From positions 6,515,730 through 6,579,729 of the forward strand of contig CAIIXF020000007.1 in NCBI GenBank assembly GCA_903813345.2: a DNA stretch of 64,000 nt, in the 5' to 3' direction. Below the pieces are notes generated by a model. That model searched no databases. It had not been told where the DNA came from and saw only the letters and a program-made list of their open reading frames with translations. Made by a program: the position numbers and the translations under genes. Source of the DNA: Owenia fusiformis (taxonomy: Eukaryota > Annelida > Polychaeta > Sabellida > Oweniidae). Below are positions 15,378 to 59,989 of this stretch, one piece after another. Positions within the stretch are counted from its first letter, which is position 1, and every line of letters starts with the position of its first letter.

Positions 15378-16765
15378 TTTATTCCACTACACATATTATA
15401 CCAACCACAAGAGAAATCTCTAAAAGCTTCCCAGAATCGATCAAAAATGGTTTATTTTCACTTTTTATACTCTGTAGCCAGATTGTATTTACTAAAATAA
15501 AATTTCTAAAAAACATTTAATGTTTAATTTTTTTCTGCAAAAAACACATTTTTACCCCAAAACACATTATGACACCTATTTCTTCTTGTTAAGGATGCAG
15601 TACCAGGTCAGCGTAGAATAAGTTCCAGACATTAGATTTTGCTCATATTTTTTACAATGTATCACTATGATGTTATCATCATCCAAGTGCAATATGGAGA
15701 GGATTGACCGTCTGGTAATTACAAAATAAAAAAGTTATTTTACCCACCCAAAATGAATCTTTTTACTTTTTTTGAGTTTTCAATAGAGCTGGCACCTTTC
15801 GAACCCTGGTTTTCGTATCCACTAATTGCGACTCAAGAACAAGTTTTCCCACAAAAGTGAAAGGGAAACATCATTATCGAAATTAACTATAATTTTTGAA
15901 TAAGACTAAATGCGAAAATGACGTTCTTGGGAGCTAGCTTTCTCAAACCGGAAGTCAAACCTGCGCAAACAGACGTGAAAACCGACCCGGTACTGCATCC
16001 TTAAATCTCAGTATCAATTAAGAAACCATTTACCTTTCAATAAGTTAACATGACTTGCCTGCTCGTCAAAAAGAGGTCATTATATTTTCAATGCACTGAT
16101 TCTAGTCTACATTCATTTCACTATATGCCAACCACAAGAGAAATCTCTTAAACCTCCCCAAAATCACCAAAATCGATCAAAACTGATTTATTTTCATGTT
16201 TCCATAGTCAACCAGACTATAGTACTATTTACTGAAATAAAATTTCAAATTTTTTTTTAATTTAAAAAGAAAATTCTCTGAAAAACACATTTTTAACCCA
16301 AACACATTTTGACACCTATTTTTCCTTGTTAAATCTCAGTATCAATTGAGAAATCATTTACCTTTCAATTAGTTAACATAACTTGCCTGCTCGTCAAAAA
16401 GAGGTCATTATAAATTCAATGCACTGATTCTAGTTTACATTCATTTCACTATGACAACCACAAGATAAATCTTTAAAACCTCCCCAAAATCACCAAATTC
16501 GATCAAAACAGATTTATTTTCACTTTTCCATAGTCAACCAGACTGTATTTACTGAAATAAAACTTCTAAAAAAATGTTTTAATTTTTCAAAAAAAATTCA
16601 GCAAAAAACACATTTTTTACCCAAAAACACATTTTGACACCTATTTCGTTTTGTTAAATCTCAGTATCAATTTAGGAACCCTTTTCCTTTCAATTAGTGA
16701 ACATGACTTGCCTGCTCGTCAAAATATAAGATGTCATTATATTTTCAACCCCCTGATTCTAGTCT
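15378..16765. repeat. Tandem array of ~320-bp units, three copies
   Basis: Copies begin near 15378, 16118 and 16442, each with the motifs accacaagagaaatct, aacacattttgacacctatt, cttgcctgctcgtcaaaa and tgattctagtcta. Copy 1 is split by the MITE at 15593-16000. No coding capacity. Confidence 0.85.
15593..16000. mobile_element. TTAA-flanked MITE inserted in a tandem repeat unit
   Basis: Inverted ends GGATGCAGTACC.GGT at left and ACCCGGTACTGCATCC at right, 408 bp. TTAA sits on each side (15589-15592, 16001-16004). Sister repeat units have the empty site cttgTTAAatctc, which proves the target duplication. No transposase frame. Confidence 0.9.
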
Positions 16766-17118
16766 AGTACTTTTATCAAATTATATAAGATATGGATATG
16801 CGTGCATATAGAAATATAAGAAAATATATTTTTGCGCTGGGCATGGAATGGCCAATTTGAAGCCATTTCGTAAGAATATGTTATTTATTTTTAAATTTGA
16901 ATTTTAATTAAATACAATATTTAATTTAATTTTAATCTTATACAAATGATCTCCATTGTTTGAATATGTACCATTAGAATAAAGATTAATGTTTCGGGTT
17001 TTTTGCTGAATTCAAAACAGACTAAATCACGCCCGGTGATCGGAAGAAATGAACGGAAGGGTGGATTAGCTGATTTTTGCAAGAAAATTCATCAAATCTG
17101 GAAGATTTATTTTTATCG

Positions 17119-17908
17119 CACCCTCAGGTGCTATACTGTAATCAGTTTGCCGGGCGGTTGGGTGGGCGGACGGGCGTCCCGAATAATCTTGTCTACAGGT
17201 TTCCAGCCAAACCGTTTGAGGGATTCATTTGAAATTCTCATGGATGTTTCTACCTATGAAGGTTTAGAACTGATTAGTTTTTCGACATTCTGGATAAATG
17301 TTAAGACGGCCATTTTGGATTTTCCGTCCTAAAATCTTGTCTGTCAAGGCTTGTCTACAGGTTTCCAGCCAAACCGTTTGAGGGATTCATTTGAAATTCT
17401 CAGGGATGTTTTTACATATAAAAGTTTTGAAATGATTAGTTTTTCGGCATTCTTGGTAAATGTTAAGGAGGCCATTTTGGATTTTCCGTCCTAAAATCAT
17501 GTCTGTGAAGGCTTGTTTTAAAAAATAAAAAAGAATTTCCCATTGAGAGCAATGTTAAATTAAAACATTTTTTTAGAAATAACTAAAAGGTCAATCTTTC
17601 CAATATTCACATATTTTGTAAAACATTAGTATATCTTTTACCAGGATTTTTTTCAGGAAAATCTGAATTGCAGAAAAAAAGCTGATACACTGTGAAATAA
17701 TACCTTAAAACGTGTCTCGTGAGGGTTGTTTACAGGTTTCATGGATTCATCCTAAAATTTAGACATGTTTCTATGGAAAGTTTAGAACTGATTAGTTTTT
17801 AGGTAGTCTGGGTAAATGTTAAGGTGCCCATTATGAATTTTCCATCCCGAAAAGTGTATTCTGTTCAAGGGTGCGATTCTGTTCACCCTGTGGTTTGTTT
17901 TATTTTTT
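17119..17908. repeat. Insertion in the left arm carrying a 162-bp tandem repeat
   Basis: Relative to the right arm, ~790 bp is extra here. Its edges carry CGCACCCT at left and AGGGTGCG near the right. Inside are two good copies of a 162-bp unit (from about 17191 and 17353; core tctacaggtttccagccaaa) and a degraded third near 17711-17860. The 109-residue frame at 17003-17332 runs across arm and repeat and is not a gene. Confidence 0.65.
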
Positions 17909-36950: not shown

Positions 36951-37294
36951 TCACAAACACGTGTTCCTGATCCGTGATCTCGTGCAGATATCGCAGTTTA
37001 CAGTACAACACCAGTGAAAGGTACAATTGCATCTCTCCCGAACTAAATAAGTCTCACTTGTGTGACCACGTCCACAGCACATTAGATCACACCCATCTAC
37101 ACCTATAGATGTGGCATTGCACTCTCTCCCTCGAGTCCCCCTCGAGTTCAAATAATTGTCAGCCTCGCAGAATGTAGGCGACTTCTCGTAATAAACTAAG
37201 TCTACCACTCCTGGTACCTTATGGTCCATATTCACGGGCACGAGATTATAACGAGAACTGCGTGACCTTGAACCCCGTCTGCTTCCAGAGTTAC
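36951..37294 (-). CDS. Wnt1: Wnt1 coding exon 5 (C-terminal cysteine-rich domain)
   Basis: 344 nt to TGA at 36953-36951; acceptor gcatttttcag. It encodes the linker, [27 protein letters not shown] and [12 protein letters not shown], ending NTCL. All domain-closing cysteines are present. Confidence 0.98.
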
Positions 37295-40200
37295 CTGAAA
37301 AATGCAATCAAATATATAAACACGAATCAAAAATGTTTTTCATTTCGGGTAATTTTAGATTCACGATCAAACAATTGCTAATTCCTCGGGCATTTTTTGA
37401 AGATCATATCTGTCGTGTTTTAATCCGTCATGGGATCGGTACTTTTGAATGTGACTATACACGCAACACGACATAATCATGAACGTGCATCCTGATTGAT
37501 GAAACATATAGATAATGGAATGAAAACATGCATTTTGAACAATATATAACCAAGCAGTGTGGGATGTACGAAATAACTTGTATGAAAAAACGTAGGATCA
37601 CGATGCATGGGTGTTTTAATAGAAATGATTGTGTTGCGCTACTTCGAGATGGCCCAACCCCGGGGGCCCAACTATTATTTTAGTCACTCACCTTGAAAAA
37701 CTCTGGATGCTCCATCGAATCTGTCCTTCAGTTTGTGACTGACTACCCTGAATGGAGCCAATTTCTTCCAACACGTCTTCATCGTGCAACTCCCTGACAT
37801 CCCGTGGCATTTGCATTCTTGTCTTAGTTCCTGGATGACCGTCTACAAAACATATATAAGCAAACGTAATTAATGGACGCAATTTTGTATAGTACATTAT
37901 GGTTAATCTGAATCATAGGATTAAATGCTATGCTAAGAACCGATGTGAAAAAGTCATTCCCACCCCGATGGGAATCGAACCCACAACCTCCCGATTGCAT
38001 GTCAGAAGAAGAACTGGTAAGAGAACATCAGTTTAATGAAATATTTGCTGTTTATCAAATAATTATTATACAATTGTTATATATTGTATGTTATGTACTC
38101 TTCAGCAGCAAACTAAATTGTTTTGAAGCATAGTATGATTTAAAATAACTCAAATATGAATTTGGGAAAATATGGTGCATATCTAAGGAAAGAAATCTTA
38201 AAGCAATTTATCAAAAAAGTTCAAAAGATGTTAATGTTCGATTCCTCTCAACTTGATCAATCAGTTTGATAATCGCATAGATCTGCTTGACAAAAATGAT
38301 TAGAGAAATATCGCGTGGAAAATATTGATATAAGAAAATAATAATACAGACAGTTAAACAGTATCTCTTACGCGTCAAAGGCAAGATGAAAGTGAGAGGT
38401 TCCAGCGTGAGTTAAGATAAATTGAAAATGTTCAAACTAATAGCTTCAGTTTAAGGATCCTGTCTGGTATGAGAATAACTATATTGGCGTAAGAAAATAA
38501 TAGTCTTATGAGTCATGGAAATATTACTTTATTCAGTTGAGGCGTACTTAAGTTAAAAATAAGATAAATGCAGTTAACTATAACCCATAAGAAATGAATG
38601 AAAGAATTAAAAGCCAAAAATAAATTGATGTAAACGCAGGGGTCGTATCAAAGTTTCGCATTTTAAACCTCAGTTTGTGAAACGGGCTTTTTGGAAGTGC
38701 AATTTTTTGTTAAAAGACCTATAAAAGAAATCCGTATATTTCTACTTTTTTTATTCAGGGAAATTGACTTTAATCATCCAGCCACACTCGCTATCGTTAA
38801 CATATAGAACTGTAAAGCGAAATACTAGTATATGAGACGGCGCCTTAGTATTGTATCATACAGTACTTGTCTTTTTATATTTGTATTTCTTTTTCAACAG
38901 ACTACAAAAGAAGCCTTTATAAGTTTAACTTAAGTTAGCCACCCAGGGAGGTAGGGTAAGCTGTTTGAAGCAACTTAGAGTCATGTCTCACTGTCACATG
39001 TAAAACATAATCCACTAGATAAAGTGTTAAATCAGCTCTCGTTCTGGAGTAACAGTAGAGCATAACTGACACTCAGTTCAACAGGTATAAAACCATTAAA
39101 AATATATTTATTCGTTTGTGACAAGAAATAAATATATTTAGTGAAAAGGATATACAGTTTGGCCTTAACCACACATAACTTTAAAATCATTATTTCGAGT
39201 GCTAATGTCGACAGTTATCCCTGTGTTTTATGGGCGCACTACAATAACGATGACTTAGGAATGAAAAATTGCGCAGGTAGCTACAATATTCACTATTTGA
39301 CACTTGTTTACTTAGCTGTTGATGATAAAACATAAGGGGCGACCCTCAAAAATTTCCTGATGTTGTATATGTTCTAGTGAGCATTTCCATCCTGTTTTTG
39401 TCCAGAATTGAAGTCTAATATTGACCTAATATGCATTTTTTAAACTATAGAGATAAATAGATAAACATTCAGAAAACAATGGTGTTTTAGATTTCATGTA
39501 AGAAATGCTTAACCGGATCGTTTTTTGTAATAAGTGTCCACGTTTCACATTTAAAATCAAATTAGTCAATAGGAGGTGTATGACGTATTTATTTTAACTT
39601 TAAATACCTTCAAAAGTAGGAAAAGAGAAAGTTTGCGTCACTGAACCAATGCTGAATAGTAACAGGTTTATAACACGGAAATCTGCACTTTAACTCCTAT
39701 TGGTTTCGAACTATTGTGTTTGGAGTGCCTATATGCATGAATCAAACAATTAAAGCATTCCTTAGCTCCATATGAGCCATATCGCATTTGGAGCCTTATT
39801 ACGACCGTTCCTTTATAATCGGACATTAGTATTGTTGTCGATGAGCTCGTTAACAGTCTTTTTATTTCAGAGATAATGTGCCATCAATTAGTAAATGGTT
39901 TCTCGAGTACATGTGAAAAGTTTCGGTAAATCACCAAAAAGTAGTTCCATATGAATTATCGTGTGTGCCTTATTGGGTGTATATACCACCCATAGTCTGG
40001 GTGGTGAGTTACTGGAAACATATCTTAATTATAGTCTTTTATACGCCATGCGACAATACCACCCGCCCCTGAAATCCTAAACGTCGCCAGGTATGATAAA
40101 ATGTGAAAATACTAAAAAAAGATACGACGAATATATCACAAACTAAATTGTAATAACATGTTTAAATAAGGTTCTGTCAAGTAGTCTGTTTTTCTTAGCT

Positions 40201-43200
40201 CTTAACCTCTGGCTCCTGTTGATTATATGAGTCTAGCACCTCACGAGTTGAATATATAACAGATTATAATATTTGTAGGATAGATTTAACAACTTAACTT
40301 ATTTTCAATGAATTAAGAACAATTTTAAGAAAACTGAGAAATCAAAACGCCCCTTGGTATTTTCCGGGGGTATTTTACGCTGTTCCAAGGAGTGATGATA
40401 ACTTTTTTAATTGATCACATTATTTTGGCTATATATCACATAGGTTGTCTTTGATGCATTCTATTAAAATTTGAACAAGGACAAGAGAAATACATTTAAC
40501 ATTCCATAAATCTCTTAAGAAAACTTTGGACGATGGTGAATAAAGTGAAATTCAATTTAATGAACAATTACTGCCTATGCCTAAGGGAATACAGGAGTGG
40601 TATCAAAGGATCCTCATAACACCCGTTAATTATCTATTGATATTAATTGTGATTTATATGTTTGGGGGTCGAGCTAAAATGTCTCATTTCGTACTTCAGT
40701 ACTTGCAGATCAAAGAACCTAAACAATATCTTTACAAATTTTGTTTTGTATTATTTTCTTTTTCAAACATTTTTTATTAAGATTGTAGTCGTTCAATAAT
40801 CACTGATGTTAGTGAAAACTATGATTTATTTATTATTTTCCCATTGCACTGTTCTAGCGGTGCCCAAAGTCAACTATTTCGACATTAACTGTATGCAAAT
40901 TATTTTGAGTGGGTCATTCTGGATGGAGTGATGGTAATTCAGTTTTTATGCAACAGATGTCAAGAGATATTGAAATTCGTATTCTGCAAATTCATAGCTT
41001 TTTATATCTGAAACGCTGTTTTTATATTCCCATAACTCCAAATATACAGTATCTCTGGATAGAACGAATACTGACGGTGGTCCAAATCTGCCCTAGGCAA
41101 GTCATAAGCGACAATGACCAAGAACGGTAAATTCCTTTGAAATGACCACGCCCCGAACACCAAACATCTCCTCAAAGGATAAGCAAATTAGATATTAGAA
41201 TATCAACATAAAACTCAAATAAATTATTCCCAACTTCTAATTGTTTCACACGCGCCAACGAATAATAGAGCACTAACTGGTAATTATTTCAAAATGCCCA
41301 TCGGCACTTTATTAATAGAATATTCTCTTTAGTAGGAAGTGTTGGTAATCGTAACTATGGACACACTGAATGAATGTATAAATTATAGAGGTATAACTCC
41401 GAAGAATTTTCGATTGAGCGGACTATAGGCCAACCATGTTCACTCCGTAAATTTGATATTATCGAAGAGTTTCGGGCAAGATTGTATTTTGTACTATTCT
41501 TACAGTATTTGAACATTTACTTACCGTTCTTCCTGCCTCGTTGTTATGGAGATTCATCATACACCTTAAATCTCGCCCTTTCTCGACAACATCGATAAAA
41601 TCTTGCGAGAAATCATAGCCAAAGTCTGCGTTGTCGCTACAGCCTCCCCATTCCCAGTTTTGGCCTCCTATGGTGTTTTGAGGGGTGTAATCACAGCTGC
41701 AGGTGTATACGCTGCCGTCGCTGCAAGACTGTGCTACTGTATGCGATATAGCTGCACTGGTGATGGCATAGATAAACGCTGTCTCTCGGCATCCTGGAAG
41801 GTCAAGGTCAAATTTAAAACAAATTAAAAAAACAGTTGTCATAAATGGAAACTTACCTATTTTGACTTGTGATTAAGGCCAAGTCTAACAGTGAATATTA
41901 GGCCTCTTGAATAATACCTTGTGTATGTATTGGGCCTCAATTGTCATTAGGCCATGTTAATATTCGGCATATATATTTGGCACATATAGTGGAGGTTAGC
42001 ATATGAATCGTTTAGCAAATATTACCCGGCCTAGTTAGTTTTGTATTTGACTTAAATTGGGCCAAGTCGGTACTGGGCCAAGTAAATGGTTGGTATTGTA
42101 AATTAAGGACCTAGTTTATCCGTGGCCTCGAAATTGTTGCAATACCATGTTTGGCCTTATCGTAAATGAAACCCCCCACACTTAGCTATACATGATCTCA
42201 CGGGAAGTCCTTGGCAACACACAATTAACCTAAGTCTGTAAGTGTTATTTTAGTGAATTTAAAAAACATTTTTCCTTTGTGCATGTATTTACGAGTTAAC
42301 TTGGTTACTGCTTTTATTGGGATTTTACTAGATGTCATATTGTGGTTTATCCCGATTTTAAATATTGCGTGGCGTGGATTAACTTTGAAATTTCTCACGC
42401 TATATTTGAAAAAGACACCGACATCCAAACCAACCATTGACAAAAAAATATTGCTAAAATACTAGGTACCGCAACCCTATGTGAATAACCCTGCGAGCTT
42501 AGGAGTATAATCACGGCATTATAGTTGAAAATAATGAGAAAAATACAAACTGTTTGGATAATAACATATCATCAGATGTAAAGAAATATCTGTTTTATAA
42601 GAATATTCGTATGTTTAGCCCTCGGGTGTTGAGGATACTGAAAGTGGTAGTGAAATCAATTAGTAGATTTTCACTTGTTTATGACTTTTCACCTCAATTG
42701 CAAAACTCTTCCAAATAAATACCCAAATAGTTGTAAATATCATCGTTTTCTCTCTGATACGGATAGGCGCATTAGTTATTATAACATTTTTACCATGCTT
42801 GGTGTGTACTTCACGCGTCGATCTGCAATGTTTTTATATGTAATATCAGGTTTGGAGAGGAAAGTGACAGAGGATAATGACAATGTTTGAACGGGGATGC
42901 GTTGCGACTTGACTAAGATAAATAGAATCTTTTATAGTGCACCGGGGTGTAAACTCTCCAAACTATGCGACTCAACTTGTCGTTATACTACCAACTGTTT
43001 AATCTTTTACTTTCTCTCTCTAATGCTTAAATGATGATATATCATGACCAAACGGTGGCTTTTCATTCAGCATGCATGTTAGAATAAAGCAACCTTTTGT
43101 GAAAGAATCACATCCATCAAAGAGGTAGCTCTATGTTAAATTGTTTTGTAAAAATAAGAGAAAAACATTAAATAAAAAGGTGTAATGAAACGGAGTCTAT

Positions 43201-46200
43201 AGTTTGTAAAGTTTATCAAATCGTAACGAGCAGGTTATCGGGCACTTGACTCAAACCGACACATTAAAAAGAACTCCCCTGGAAACGTTAAGGTCAATAG
43301 TGGCCATTTCAAAGACAGAGATAGATTTTTAATGTGAAGAATAAAAGGGAAATGATGAAGTCACATTAAAATGAAAAGGGAACTGGAAAAGTGATGTCAA
43401 AGTGACAAACGACCATCTCCAATAGAATATTCATCTCGATTCCCGGACCTCTTGCATAAATGATGCTTTATAAAAGCATGTTGGCCATTGAATGTTGTGC
43501 AACTTTGTACGTTTTCTGGTACACACATAATCTTGCTTTGGTGATTCTTCGGTCCCCACGCCTTAAATCTATTTCCCTATCGAGATATCTAAAAAACTAG
43601 GGGTTGTCTACTCTAGAGTGACCAGGTAAAAATGATTAACATTTCGAGGCTTCACCATTTATTCTTCTACAAGTAGCGTTCCTACAAGTGCCGTGCCGTT
43701 TGTGCCTCTTTGCTTTCAGGTTTTCTGTATCTATAAAGTGCTAAAATAAGGAGCTTCCAGGAAAACTTACCATCATATAATATTTTGCCAAAAACGTTAT
43801 CTTCTTTGTCATCGGTTGGACAATTCCAGCGACGATTTTTGAACTGGTAAGCGCATTCATCGATGGCGACTTTGGCTCCCTTTGCCACTGCTAAAATGGT
43901 TCCCGGGTTCTTGGTGACTAGTCTGCGCTGCTTGCGCGTGAGGGGCTGAAGACTGGGGTTTATGTACATGGGTGCGGACGGGTTGAGAACACTATTAGTG
44001 TGGACCTTTGCTGGTAGGAGACCTGTAAGACCCAAGCTCCTGAAAACAGAATGGAATATAACATTAATTCAAAGATTTTACAAATAATAAAGAATTTGCC
44101 CGTGTCTTTGAACATTTAGAGATGTATTTTTATTTCTTCCTGCTATACGGAATATAATTATCAATTCAAAGATTTTACAAATAATAAAGAATTTGCTTGT
44201 GGCTTTGAAGATTTAGAGATTTATTTTTACTTCTTCCTGCTTTACGGAATATTAATATTAATTCAAAGATTTTACAAATAATATATGGAAATACACTTCG
44301 AGCAATTTGACTTCTAGAGTTGTCTTTTAAAATACCTAATATGCCGATGTATCTCAATAATGTGTCGGATTTCAATTCATAAGCTTGAATTGCATTTTGA
44401 TCGGACAAATCTAATATTTAACGTTTCATCATGTGTGTGTTCTTAATGATTTATTTATTCAATTAATGATTGGTTAAATTATTGTTTCATTTATTAATTT
44501 GGTATATTATTTGATGAAATATCTTTATATATACATGACATTATGGTAGTTGTACATTTAATGTCCTGTTTTTCGTATCAAATGTTATTGCTCTCAACTG
44601 TTGCTCATTGCGTTTTCTTTAACAATTTGAATAAATGAAATAATTTTTCATAATACAAAAGATATGTCATAATTAGAATAATGATTTCCTTATTTTTGAA
44701 AAATCTGCGTAGGAGACAACAAAAGAGTTTGACTTTGTTCTTCCTCCTATTTAGACCATTGAGAGATGCAATGACATCGTACACATTCCAAGAATCATGT
44801 TGGTTAATAATCGGAAATACAGCAATAATTATGTGGAGCTGATTTTGGTTTTCTCGTAACCTTTCTATCAATTTGTCTTGATGACACTACGTACGTTAAA
44901 ATTCATATCCCCAGAAATGCAAGAATTCTGAAGTGATCCCTTTTGACAGTTGCTTATATGGGTATAGTTAAATGGGATTATATGTACGTTTGATTGTCAC
45001 TGATTCACCATCCTTGGGCCATCTTCGACTTCCTAAAATATTCCAAGCCAGGAAAACTTTGGATAGATGTGACAAGGATGAATCATGAGTTTTAAAAAGT
45101 TACTGAATGCCCCCCCCCCCCCCCGTCCTCTTAACAAATACTGCCCCACTAGAAAGCTGAGAATTTGTATCTGACCAATGTCTGACCAAATAGCTATCTA
45201 TCATGGACCATTGTTCCGTATGGCCCTTCAATTAGCATATGGCACATAACGACGAGTGGACAATCGTTTTGCCCATTATGATCCTTAATCGATCTGCTGT
45301 TACCACTTGGGTAATGACCACTTGATTCGACACTGTCTGGAAACACTATGGGAATTGTTCTTGACATGTCAATCCAGCGCCGGGGTACCAATAGGCTGAC
45401 ATTGAGTACACTGACCCTGTTCAAAGCGCATTGGGAATCGGTCCATGATCCAAGTGCCATTCCTTCTTTAATATCATAATTTCGATATTCCCCATGAGAT
45501 TTGATTTTTCGAATGAATATACGAAAATGTATATATAATGCTAATTATAACGTATTATAATGCTCGAAAATAAAAGATTTAAAAAGATCTTGAAGCGAAA
45601 TCTCTCATACTAAATTGGGATATCTATTGATTTGTATTGATGTTGTCTTAATGGACTATTTGTCTGTCGTGGTTTGAATATTTGTTTAATACATATTAAT
45701 TAGATATGTTTTAAATACGTTATATTAAATTGTGAGCATAAATCTTTTATAACCTGAAATGAACTGAACTAAATCCGTATCGACCACTCTTTCCAAGAAA
45801 ATAATATTTGAAAAGTATCTATCCTTGCCTACGGGTCAAGATAGAACTTGTTCTTATCTGAAGCAATCTGAGATAAGCCAAATAATCTCTGAATATTGGT
45901 ACACTCCCCTCAAAAAGTTTGGCAAACCAACATCTCTTTTAGACCATATTAATGCCTGTTTATGTTTGGCAATTTTAGAAAATACATTTAGTTATTTTTG
46001 AGATGAGAAAAGTATGAAAACATAAACAGTTTTTTTACATTATATCTATCCATGGACCATATGGCCACACTTTTGAGGTGCGTGTAACATGTTTACCTTC
46101 AATTTAAAGCTACATTCTTGTGTTCGAGTCCTACACATTATAAACCAATTCAGTTATCAAAAGTATGTTCACTGAATTATTTTCAATTGTTGAAATATTG

Positions 46201-53855: not shown

Positions 53856-54323
53856 TTATTTACACATATAAACCTCTTCAGTTGTTGTACATTGGTTACA
53901 TTTAACGTGACAACACCATATGACGCGGCACTGACACGGTCTAGTGACTACCTTACTCTGTACATTATAGCCACGCCCACAACACATGACGTCACAATTG
54001 GTGCTTTTATTACACACTCGGGCTGAAGTTCCGGGGGAGTATTTAGTCCGTTTACAAAAACTAGGGGAGTTATCAACGAACACTAGATCAGAGTTTTTCT
54101 TCGCCGGGTTCGTGACAGGACTTTTTTTCCTTTTTCTAACGAGTTGCGTCTTTCCTGTAGCTTGATTCGTACTTGATAAAACTTTGTAAGCATTTTCGTA
54201 TTTGTCTTTTAGAACGTTCCCTATCTCATGAAAAGGTGCGAGTTGACGCCAGCACGTCTTCACCGTGCATGTTGCTGACACACCGTGACATTTGCAAGTC
54301 GTTTTCATACGGTCTCTCACAAT
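53856..54323 (-). CDS. Wnt9: Wnt9 terminal coding exon
   Basis: 468 nt (155 codons plus TAA); acceptor tctgttttcag. It holds the acylation hairpin and the whole C-terminal domain, without the intron that splits this part of Wnt1. The hairpin tip reads CHGVSATC rather than the usual CHG-SGSC; the acylated Ser is retained. One N-glycosylation sequon (NKS). Confidence 0.96.
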   Translation of the reverse strand: MVRDRMKTTCKCHGVSATCTVKTCWRQLAPFHEIGNVLKDKYENAYKVLSSTNQATGKTQLVRKRKKSPVTNPAKKNSDLVFVDNSPSFCKRTKYSPGTSARVCNKSTNCDVMCCGRGYNVQSKVVTRPCQCRVIWCCHVKCNQCTTTEEVYMCK

Positions 54324-57300: not shown

Positions 57301-59989
57301 ATGTTAACAATAATTTCGTTTATCAACAAATAGAAGTCAAAGTCAATCCCCGTAGATCCATTTGTAAATAATTTCACACAGGGGACCAGGTGTGCGTTTC
57401 GAAATTTCACATCATTCAGAATTTTTCAACTATTTGCTGAAATCATTTATGTACTTTTTAAACCGTTTATTGCAATTCTATCTTGTTATTTTGAAGATAA
57501 GTGCTATTTTATGTGAGGTAAAGTGAAAGAACTCTTTTTCGAATTGTTTTTAATTCACTAATGTTTCCAGTTGTTTGGGTCATAAACCGACGCGTGAGGG
57601 TATTGCGTTTTAACGGCATATACGAGGGTTGTCCCAGAAGTAATGCACTATATGCTCTAACTTTCTTTAATATTCTTCAATTCTGCTGAAATTTTGTGTA
57701 TATAACAATTGAAGTTTTATCTATTATATCCTGAAGTTGCAGCATCCAACATTAATCTTAAGTCTTAATATGGTTGCTATAACAACATGGGGGTAGGGGT
57801 GGGCGGGGCAGGTACCAATTTTTCTAATTATGAAAAGATCTAAAGTGTTATTTTATTAATATTTCTTTCCTTTAAATGGTCAAAATGTTTGGGAAATTGT
57901 CAAATTTATTCAGCATGATGTTAACCAAGTACGAATAATGACATTTAGCACTGTGATGTCATAATACCACATTTCAATAGTCACAAATTCAAATACAGTC
58001 ACAGTCAAGAAATTGCAAAAATGGCTGCAATTCTCACCTGATAACAGAAGGCCTTGCGTTTGGTGGCCTAATTTCATACTTCACTTGGACTCACAGCCAC
58101 GCAAAACAATGCTACCATGAAGAAAGTATATAAGGAGTATATACCAGATAGAACTACAATTATGGGGTGGCAGAAGAGATTTAAAAGAGACGATTTGACC
58201 CTGTATGACAACTTCAAACATGGGAGGCAAAAACTCCACAAGTCACAGTGGAAGAAATTGCCGAGAGTGTTTAACCTGACAGGCATCAAAAGTACATAAC
58301 ATGCAAAGGACAATATTTTGAGAAATGTGAAATGGGACATTGTGCAATATACATCCATTAAATCTAGGATGTGCTCAAAGTGATTTAGTATCTTAAAATG
58401 TATTATTGAGCATACTTCTTATAGCTACACCAAATGGTATTTGTTGATTAATTATTTCATATTTTCAATTTTTTATTCCTTTTGATGTGACTGTATAACC
58501 TGCCCCGCCCTACCCAGACTCACCAACTTGATTTTATTATAACATCAATATAGTTTTATCAGTCAACATGAAAATTTCTAGAATAATCAAAATGTCTCTA
58601 AGGAACATTTACTGAAACTTTTATGGAAAAATATCAATTATTGATAAAGTTAGAGCATATAGTGCATTACTTCTGGGACAACCCTCGTATAGGCCAATAT
58701 TAAATGAAAAGCTGAATGGCTAAATGAAAACAAAACCGATTAAAGTCAGAAGTAGAGCATTAGAGGAAATTACTTTATTTAAACTCCATGTAATATATGA
58801 ATATGCCTTATTAAACAGCATTTTGATATGAAATAAATTCATTGTTTCGGTTGTTTCAAACATAAATCATGGGTTTTCCTAGGATTTCATCGTTCGACCT
58901 TAAGACTACTCATTGGCAGAGTACCTCCCCGTATTAAGCCACCCATTAACAGTAAAGCCACTCATTGACAGTGTATCTTCCCGTATTAAGCAGCCCATTG
59001 GCAAGAGTACCTACCCTATTAAGCCACGCATTGACAGTTAAGTTGCCCATTGGCAAGAGTATCTACCCATATAAGCTAACCATTTACAGTTAAGTTACCC
59101 ATTGGCTAGGTTAACTACCCTATTAAGCCACCCATTGACAGTAAAGCCCCTCATTGGAAATTGGTTAGAGTACCTTCTCGTATTAAGTCACCCATTGGCT
59201 TAATTGAGTACCTATCCGTATTAAGCCATCAATTGATAGCCAAGCCACCCATTGGCTAGATATAATAAAGTACTTACCCTATTTAGCCATGCAAGGCAAC
59301 AGTAGAGCACCTCATTGTTTAGAGTACCTACTCGTATTAAGCCACCCATTGGCTAAAGTACCCTCCCTATTAAGCCACCCATTAACAGTAAAGCCACCCA
59401 TTGACAGTTAAGTTACCCATTGGCTAGAGTACCTCCCCTATTAAGCCATCCATTGGCAGTAAAGCCCCTCATTGGACATTGGTTAGAGAATATACGTATT
59501 CGTATTTAAATAACCATGGGCTGGAGTATTTACCCTATTAAGCCACACATTAACAGTAAATCACCTCATTGGTTATATATATAAAGCCCCTCATTGACTA
59601 GCTATTAAGTACCCATCCGAATTAAGCCATCCATTGACAGTAACGCCACTCGTTGACTTGGGTCAAGTATTAAGCTTCTCATTGACAGTTAAGCTACCCA
59701 TTGACTATAGTACCTACCCGTATTCCAACATTGCTGTTGTGCCTGTCAACCTTCGCCTTCAGATCTTGGCCAGATCGCTTACTGGCTTTTAGAAAATGTC
59801 TACTGAATTTCTGTCCAAATTTTATATTATCACCGCATCCGCCCCATCGCCATGTTTCCTTATTTTTCTTTTCGTTGAAACTCTCATCACACGTGCACCG
59901 GTCTATCCTGCCCCGGCTACACGCCCGAGCGAACGCGTGTACTAACCCTGCTGATGTCACCCCATGCAGAAACGAGGTCTCCTTGAATC
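53856..59989 (-). CDS. Wnt9: Wnt9 secreted signalling protein, 3' part (last two coding exons)
   Basis: Wnt9 (Drosophila Wnt4 class) is a secreted Wnt ligand. The exons seen are 59989-59718 and 54323-53856, joined in phase 0, about 245 codons to TAA. The first carries GFKETSFLHGVTSAGLVHA, CSRGRIDRCTCDE, WRWGGCGDN and HNSNVGIR. The second carries CKCHGVSATC, CWRQLAPFHEIG, a lysine-rich linker (RKRKKSP), DLVFVDNSPSFC, KYSPGTSARVC, CDVMCCGRGYN and the ending VYMCK. FKETSF, RWGGCGDN, SPSFC..KYSPGT and QLAPFHEIG are Wnt9 hallmarks rather than Wnt1 or Wnt6. The exon with the WNC motif and the signal peptide are not in the window, so the gene continues past 64000. It lies upstream of Wnt1 on the same strand, as in the ancestral cluster. 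Confidence 0.95.
54324..57620. other. Wnt9: Left part of the Wnt9 last intron
   Basis: No gene seen. Apart from the 55980-56101 MITE, plain AT-rich sequence. ORFs at 54521, 56041 and 56653 have no domain. Confidence 0.55.
55980..56101. mobile_element. Short inverted-repeat MITE, ~120 bp
   Basis: Left CAGGGGTTCGTTTTTGG and inner atcgtaacttacgatt pair with right aatcgtaagttacgac and CAAAAACGGACCCCAG. No coding capacity. Confidence 0.65.
57623..58687 (+). mobile_element. Mariner-type element, TA duplication, transposase N-terminal remnant
   Basis: Perfect or near-perfect ~42-bp inverted ends start CGAGGGTTGTCCCAGAAGTA; TA lies at 57621-57622 and 58688-58689. A second inner stem (gggtaggggtgggcgg with ccgccctaccc) mirrors the subterminal layout of the 12522 element. 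The plus frame 58117-58299 resembles the first helix-turn-helix of mariner transposases. No catalytic region. It sits inside the Wnt9 last intron, opposite to the gene. Confidence 0.82.
58117..58299 (+). pseudogene. Mariner transposase N-terminal fragment
   Basis: MKKVYKEYIPDRTTIMGWQK followed by RFKRDDLTLYD fits the HTH pattern (VYGEDALSRATVYRWFKRF..GRESLED) of mariner transposases. It decays after ~40 residues. Confidence 0.6.
58899..59724. repeat. Degenerate minisatellite that includes the Wnt9 exon's 5' splice site
   Basis: About 13-14 diverged copies of a 50-60-bp unit built of two halves: ttaagccacccattgacag, then taaagccacccattggc followed by tagagtacctacccgta. The right-most copy ends tatagtacctacccgtatt, where cctac is the complement of the GTAGG donor and ccgtatt lies inside the exon. 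Units also vary in length, with half-units lost or gained. Confidence 0.85.
59718..59989 (-). CDS. Wnt9: Wnt9 penultimate coding exon
   Basis: 272 nt; acceptor tatatttcag, entry completing a Gly codon (phase 1), donor ATACGG|GTAGGT in phase 0. The last 7 bases of the exon and the donor belong to the minisatellite at 58899-59724. Confidence 0.95.

Follow-up and report, generated by a model that had tools for sequence, protein, structure and literature searches.

A 64,000-nucleotide (nt) stretch of DNA, hereafter the window, to which all coordinates refer, carries a Wnt9-like gene in which the intron behind the penultimate coding exon opens with a minisatellite whose units resemble the adjoining 5' splice site. 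The locus raises the question of whether this array descends from the exon-intron border itself and, if so, what its many donor-like copies mean for splicing; the gene, the array, and the donors all lie on the minus strand. Our analysis suggests that the array is probably a mirage, that is, a minisatellite born from tandem duplication of the Wnt9-like exon-intron border. Minisatellites that span a border offer a natural experiment on how splice sites are chosen, in which near-identical donors stand side by side and the cell must pick one. In a patterning gene whose copies have decayed to different degrees, one can further ask if decoys are actively removed or simply drift, and if unequal exchange at the border puts an essential gene at risk.

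The border is defined by the following features, in which a slash marks the exon-intron boundary and PWM denotes the score from a position weight matrix.

59718..59989, minus strand: penultimate coding exon of the Wnt9-like gene (Pfam wnt PF00110, E 7.5e-29, profile 59-149; acceptor TTTCAG assigned by eye).
59716..59717, minus strand: authentic 5' splice site, CGG/GTAGGTAC (PWM 5.72; U1 duplex -12.5 kcal/mol).
53859..54323, minus strand: last coding exon of the same Wnt gene, starting with IVRDRMKTTCKCHG (Pfam wnt, E 1.8e-48, profile 151-305; acceptor TTTTCAG assigned by eye).

The penultimate exon ended with the residues HNSNVGIR in phase 0. Its last bases were ATACGG at 59718 and the intron started at 59717 with GTAGGTACTATAG, both as a first-pass annotation of the window had described; the stop codon of the gene was TAA (53858-53856, minus strand). 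The Pfam wnt domain PF00110 spanned the splice join (59-149 plus 151-305), indicating membership of the Wnt family, and the joined exons matched Wnt-7a with an E value of 8.9e-58. Because the exon join 59717/54323 aligned without gaps through the junction to two solved Wnts, Wnt-7a and Wnt-5a, the assignment of the donor at 59717 appears sound. The Wnt9 name is our assumption; it combines the first-pass annotation, residues that we take to be typical of Wnt9 (VGI(K/R)), and an adjacent Wnt1-like gene whose own name is likewise provisional.

The array and its relation to the border are described by three further features.

58897..59703, minus strand: intronic minisatellite of 31 segments (hand parsing, alignment, distal-profile matches, and Tandem Repeats Finder (TRF)).
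59704..59733, minus strand: border copy of the repeat unit, with 16 exonic and 14 intronic bases, CAATGTTGGAATACGG/GTAGGTACTATAGT (A-unit profile match; anchored alignment tests).
59391..59506, minus strand: block found a second time at 59073-59184, again interrupted by the same 7 bp (99 identities, 13 mismatches, 4 gap positions).

Parsed by hand at CAATG-like starts, the array comprised the border copy plus 31 segments within the intron; these segments fill the first ~0.8 kb of the intron and adjoin the border copy. Fourteen intronic segments were A units, a 33-bp type with the donor-like block (consensus CAATGGGTGGCTTAATACGGGTAGGTACTCTAGC; copy length 33 to 44 bp), a figure that depends on the hand parsing, the copy at 59519 being very degenerate. 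Another 13 were B units of 19 bp (e.g., CAATGGGTAACTTAACTGT and CAATGAGGGGCTTTACTGT), in which the first half was common to A units and the donor block was absent; the remaining four measured 29, 25, 7, and 7 bp. The A-unit alignment excluded the 13 B units, the two 7-bp pieces, the 29 bp at 59684, and the 25 bp at 59596. The donor-like block had been reported at six positions, all of which carried it with 0 to 3 mismatches to GGGTAGGTACTC (59618-59607, 59438-59427, 59333-59322, 59217-59206, 59016-59005, and 58930-58919, minus strand); the accompanying statement that it recurs in every unit did not hold for the 13 19-bp units. The recurrence of the 116-base block is a likely sign of multi-unit duplication. 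Outside the donor columns, A copies diverged from their consensus by ~14% per site.

TRF, a tool of the kind proposed in the first-pass annotation for obtaining unit phase, returned periods of 19, 33, 52, 71, and 85 within 58911-59474. In the 243 bp adjoining the donor it made no call, even when the score threshold was lowered to 30. A profile built solely from the copies at 59474 and below nevertheless matched 59571-59520 (E 9e-13), 59655-59607 (E 1.4e-10), and 59703-59668 (E 3.1e-7). Because this distal-trained profile matched up to 59703, the array extends as far as the donor, its end near the exon being less regular. A blastn-short search for array relics elsewhere in the window, which has a GC content of 34%, gave two matches outside the locus, each 13 bases long and with E 0.66. 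A lone look-alike of the unit, CAATCGATGGATCACTTAATAATAGGGTAGG, was seen deeper in the same intron (56479-56452, minus strand), with E values of 0.47 to 2.3 (2.3, 1.5, and 0.47), within shuffle noise.

The proposal that the array arose from the exon border depends on the repeat consensus continuing into the exon, and the alignment carried the unit through the donor in this way. The border copy shared AATACGG, i.e., seven exonic bases, exactly with several array copies and, given a 1-base and a 3-base gap, also matched most of CAATGTTGG, up to 16 exonic bases. This preferred alignment ended at CAATG, which is also the start of A and B units. With the intronic array masked, the profile of the 14 A units found the border as its sole match below E 1 (59724-59709, 12.5 bits, E 0.0073), a span made up of 7 bases of exon and 9 of intron. 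The best scores in 20 order-2 Markov shuffles of the window ranged from 2.9 to 10.6, all below the 12.5 bits of the border, and the best score in the real window with array and border masked was 5.1, within the shuffle range. A profile of 11 distal units gave the border an E value of 0.0055.

Anchored extension upstream of the donor scored 9. In the null sets, this value was attained by 3 of 4000 28-mers drawn at random from the window, by 11 of 3000 with a final G, by 17 of 3000 with a final GG, and by 16 of 3000 sequences recoded synonymously. Among donor-like sites it was reached at 0 of 84 with a PWM of at least 4 and at 1 of 227 with a PWM of at least 2. Stricter gap costs left the 7-base match alone, with null counts of 0/4000 and 2/4000 under two schemes; one of these schemes gave further nulls of 5/3000 (G), 13/3000 (GG), 4/556 (CGG), and 29/3000 (synonymous recodings). 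In our judgement, the homology of the unit likely extends into the exon, short of proof.

If the border was copied, the array should be read together with the donors that it carries, of which two were strong.

59276..59277, minus strand: strongest decoy donor, AGG/GTAAGTAC (PWM 6.21, U1 -11.4).
59013..59014, minus strand: second strong decoy donor, AGG/GTAGGTAC (PWM 4.6, U1 -11.1).

Donors were scored with human PWM frequencies and against a U1 5' end, a standard from which the organism's own donors may differ. Among 58 GTs scored from 59740 to 58890, 56 of them inside the intronic array, the authentic donor at 59717 formed the strongest U1 duplex; the third-ranked decoy, at 59564, lay inside a B unit (PWM 3.5, U1 -6.8). 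The expectation of about a dozen decoy donors proved overstated, since 6 of the 14 A copies retained the aligned GT, 2 of the 14 had a strong donor (PWM of at least 4), and 2 of the 56 intronic array GTs reached that score. A decoy near 59321 that had been called nearly perfect (59331, CGA/GTAGGTAC) scored 1.4 compared with 5.7 for the authentic donor, and the best decoy, 59277, was not near any position listed in the first-pass annotation. The copies carry splice signals that are not all intact.

Sites with a PWM of at least 4 were denser in the array (2.4 per kb) than in the rest of the intron (1.1) or on both strands of the window (0.7). The array is thus richer in donors than its surroundings, yet no more so than its composition predicts: it held 2 such sites, where 300 Markov shuffles of its sequence averaged 2.3, and 3 sites with a PWM of at least 2, where they averaged 5.4. 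Strong donors (2/14) were fewer than the ~6 predicted if they had drifted at the pace of the other columns (simulated P 0.019), and GT retention (6/14) was below the ~10 expected on the same basis (binomial P 0.012). We considered selection against decoys and rejected it; it was undercut by the donor columns being overall no more variable than the others (20/112 vs 48/347, Fisher P 0.29), by one non-splice column pair that was retained as rarely as GT, and by the non-independence of the copies, leaving a weak hint. The idea that RNA structure conceals the donor was also considered. The 9-base site of the authentic donor was slightly more accessible in the RNA (0.0082) than the region median (0.0032), and the accessibility of seven other sites ranged from 0.00013 (59014) to 0.0105.

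The consequences of decoy use are constrained by the reading frame.

59694..59696, minus strand: first in-frame stop, TAG, on read-through into the intron, after VGTIVNG (open frame; read-through translation).

This stop (59696-59694) precedes all 14 A-unit copies, and the GTs before it (59713, 59705, and 59697) are weak, with a PWM of -0.9 or less. Because both strong decoys follow the stop, their use would yield a truncated, probably decayed mRNA: splicing from 59277 or 59014 would cost the product its entire last coding exon, and the transcript would probably be degraded. The alternative 3' exon ends envisaged in the first-pass annotation are consequently unlikely as functional isoforms, both strong decoys lying beyond one early stop. 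The associated idea that repeat-number variation would move or delete a splice site survives in part: changes among the intronic units would leave the first donor intact, and only an exchange involving the border copy would be expected to disturb it.

The direction of copying was assessed with the help of the adjacent gene on the same strand (36951-44068, minus), which we provisionally assign to the Wnt1 subfamily. Its donor, ACG/GTAAGTAA at 41524, follows HNNEAGRT, and alignment by eye of HNSNVGIR with HNNEAGRT placed this intron at the same residue and phase as the Wnt9-like intron. Because position and phase are shared, the intron looks older than the array, unless it was gained twice. No array was called by TRF between the donor at 41524 and the last exon of the Wnt1-like gene, although TRF can miss decayed arrays. 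The exonic bases of the border copy encode the conserved Wnt stretch HNSNVGIR, which was gapless against Wnt-7a and Wnt-5a, and in the border copy 16 bases precede the GT, compared with 19 or 20 in most units. Takeover of the exon by a 20-base unit would be expected to shift the phase, and takeover by a 19-base unit to change codons. On account of the shared intron position and phase, the conserved exonic codons, and the shorter border copy, copying most likely ran from the border to the array. Of the two directions raised in the first-pass annotation, seeding from the splice site is the better supported, and the passage of the unit through GTAGGTAC into the exon stands as likely. In searches for orthologs, the last exon found nothing in viral contigs, and the penultimate exon gave 111 pattern matches in prokaryotic contigs, of which 0 were confirmed. 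Linkage of Wnt9 and Wnt1 is found in many protostomes. It is also described, in the portion of PMC6060547 available, for amphioxus and lamprey. Its presence in the window therefore does not discriminate between lancelets and other animals.

Under the border-duplication explanation, a founding tandem duplication of ~30-33 bp, taking in ~16 bases of exon and 14-17 bases of intron around the pre-existing 5' splice site, would have been followed by growth through unit and multi-unit duplication, with deletions giving rise to the 19-bp units. The spliceosome would stay on the outermost copy, 59717, used constitutively, by virtue of its strongest U1 pairing, coding constraint, and exon definition, and the intronic copies would drift and lose their donors. 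Several observations weigh against this explanation. Decoy 59277 outscores the authentic donor by PWM (6.2 vs 5.7); TRF misses the exon-side part of the Wnt9 array, so an array-free Wnt1-like intron is unproven; and no ortholog was found, although the collections scanned (viral, prokaryotic) contain no animals and say little. The exonic match is short, with seven exact bases, and its 16-base extension was preferred under one of four scoring schemes. The anchored nulls overall ranged from ~0.0008 to 0.014, the latter from the 8 of 556 sequences ending in CGG that reached score 9, and a compound B+A profile gave the border an E value of only 4.5. These last points, with the GG null of 17/3000, would fit an intron-only minisatellite that grew from the first intron bases (GTAGGTACT...), the exonic AATACGG and the CAATG likeness being due to chance aided by a G-rich exon end. 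We regard such an origin as unlikely, given that the border match exceeded 20 of 20 shuffles, that the extension score was reached at 0 of the 84 other sites in the window that look like strong donors, and that the preferred alignment terminates at CAATG, the start point of A and B units. An intronic array that spread outward and converted the exon end would give the same anatomy. It is extremely improbable, as HNSNVGIR aligns gapless to Wnt-7a and Wnt-5a and the border copy has 3-4 fewer bases ahead of the GT than most units; full-length units there would be expected to alter phase or codons.

The remaining alternatives concern function. Decoys could provide alternative Wnt9 exon ends, with repeat number tuning output, since two of them are near or above the authentic donor by PWM and a precedent exists in 6-16/IFI6, as cited in the excerpted text of PMC4526556. 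However, donors downstream of 59694 all meet the stop after VGTIVNG and lose the last coding exon, so most of the output should be prone to decay; a strong donor is missing from 12 of 14 copies, and the GTs ahead of the stop are weak, which makes this alternative very improbable. The array might instead act as a splicing enhancer, with closely spaced G-runs and weak U1 sites assisting exon definition from beyond the donor. On the transcript strand, G-runs of at least three occurred at 31.7 per kb in the array and at 5.0 per kb elsewhere in the intron, and in PAH an exon is aided when U1 binds within the intron past its donor (PMC5933811). Nevertheless, any array of this unit would be rich in G-runs, the donor is hundreds of bases away from most of the array, and the effect is a predicted one; we consider this role doubtful. 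A bolder and improbable extension of the border-duplication explanation would make the array a fossil of a sliding splice site, in which an in-frame founding duplication allowed the exon to end at whichever copy, and decoy GTs were purged after the frame had been disrupted by 19-base units. The 30-base border unit, repeated three times in tandem, read open (...NVGIRVGTIVNVGIRVGTI...), as did the tandem 33-base consensus, whereas the tandem 34-base consensus met stops, so the in-frame idea is mixed. If it were true, mirages would occur in developmental genes, possibly outside lancelets, with copy-by-copy selection against decoy splice sites.

Other repeats were observed in the window.

44053-44283, minus strand: 97-bp tandem array of the Wnt1-like gene, abutting the 3' splice site (by eye).

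Like the Wnt9 array, this is a tandem repeat against a splice site of a Wnt gene. It was rejected as a second border case, as its last copy ended 13 bases before the exon and extension toward the exon scored 0. Within the Wnt9-like intron just past the array, 58072-58299 (plus strand) showed a weak match to the Mos1-transposase helix-turn-helix (E 0.012, below the Pfam cut-off), and a motif at ~58690 in the same intron resembles a mariner terminal motif. Two further tandem arrays, at 16001-16766 and 17188-17516, had long units of 328 and 162 bp.

Among known systems, the minisatellite of human 6-16/IFI6 reportedly sits at an exon border. According to the excerpted text of PMC4526556, two of its downstream repeat units serve as donors; the original work (Turri et al. 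1995) is cited there and in the accessible part of PMC3618361. Downstream units are thus reported there as used donors, whereas use is unlikely in the Wnt9 array (early stop, weak copies). Intron gain by tandem genomic duplication, in which an exonic AGGT is duplicated and an intron created (PMC3443670, in part), likewise copies splice-like signals in tandem, but it makes a new intron, whereas the Wnt9 array multiplies the border of an intron that looks older. Intronic minisatellites linked to splicing in C. elegans, as described in part of PMC4039745, are a less close parallel.

The closest counterparts are the mirages of amphioxus. In the portion of PMC3087553 available, these are minisatellite-like tandem duplications of exon-intron borders in globin genes, with Adh3 (units of 10-72 bp) also cited; AG/GT signals are present in many, not all, copies, and the Adh3 data and reverse transcription PCR suggest that regular splicing is unaffected. 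The excerpted text of PMC3902484 reports imperfect mirages in PGBD5 and cites TnC; both papers use the term for such a structure. Like the mirages of Adh3, BflGb6, BflGb9, TnC, and PGBD5, as far as these excerpts describe them, the Wnt9 array has tandem units that appear to span the border, the short exonic match and the compound profile notwithstanding, and signals in part of the copies; the PGBD5 copies are likewise imperfect. The Wnt9 array differs from them in its Wnt9-like gene, ~14% decay, compound 33+19 bp units, and two strong donors left. If the animal is not a lancelet, the array would extend mirages beyond the group in which these papers describe them.
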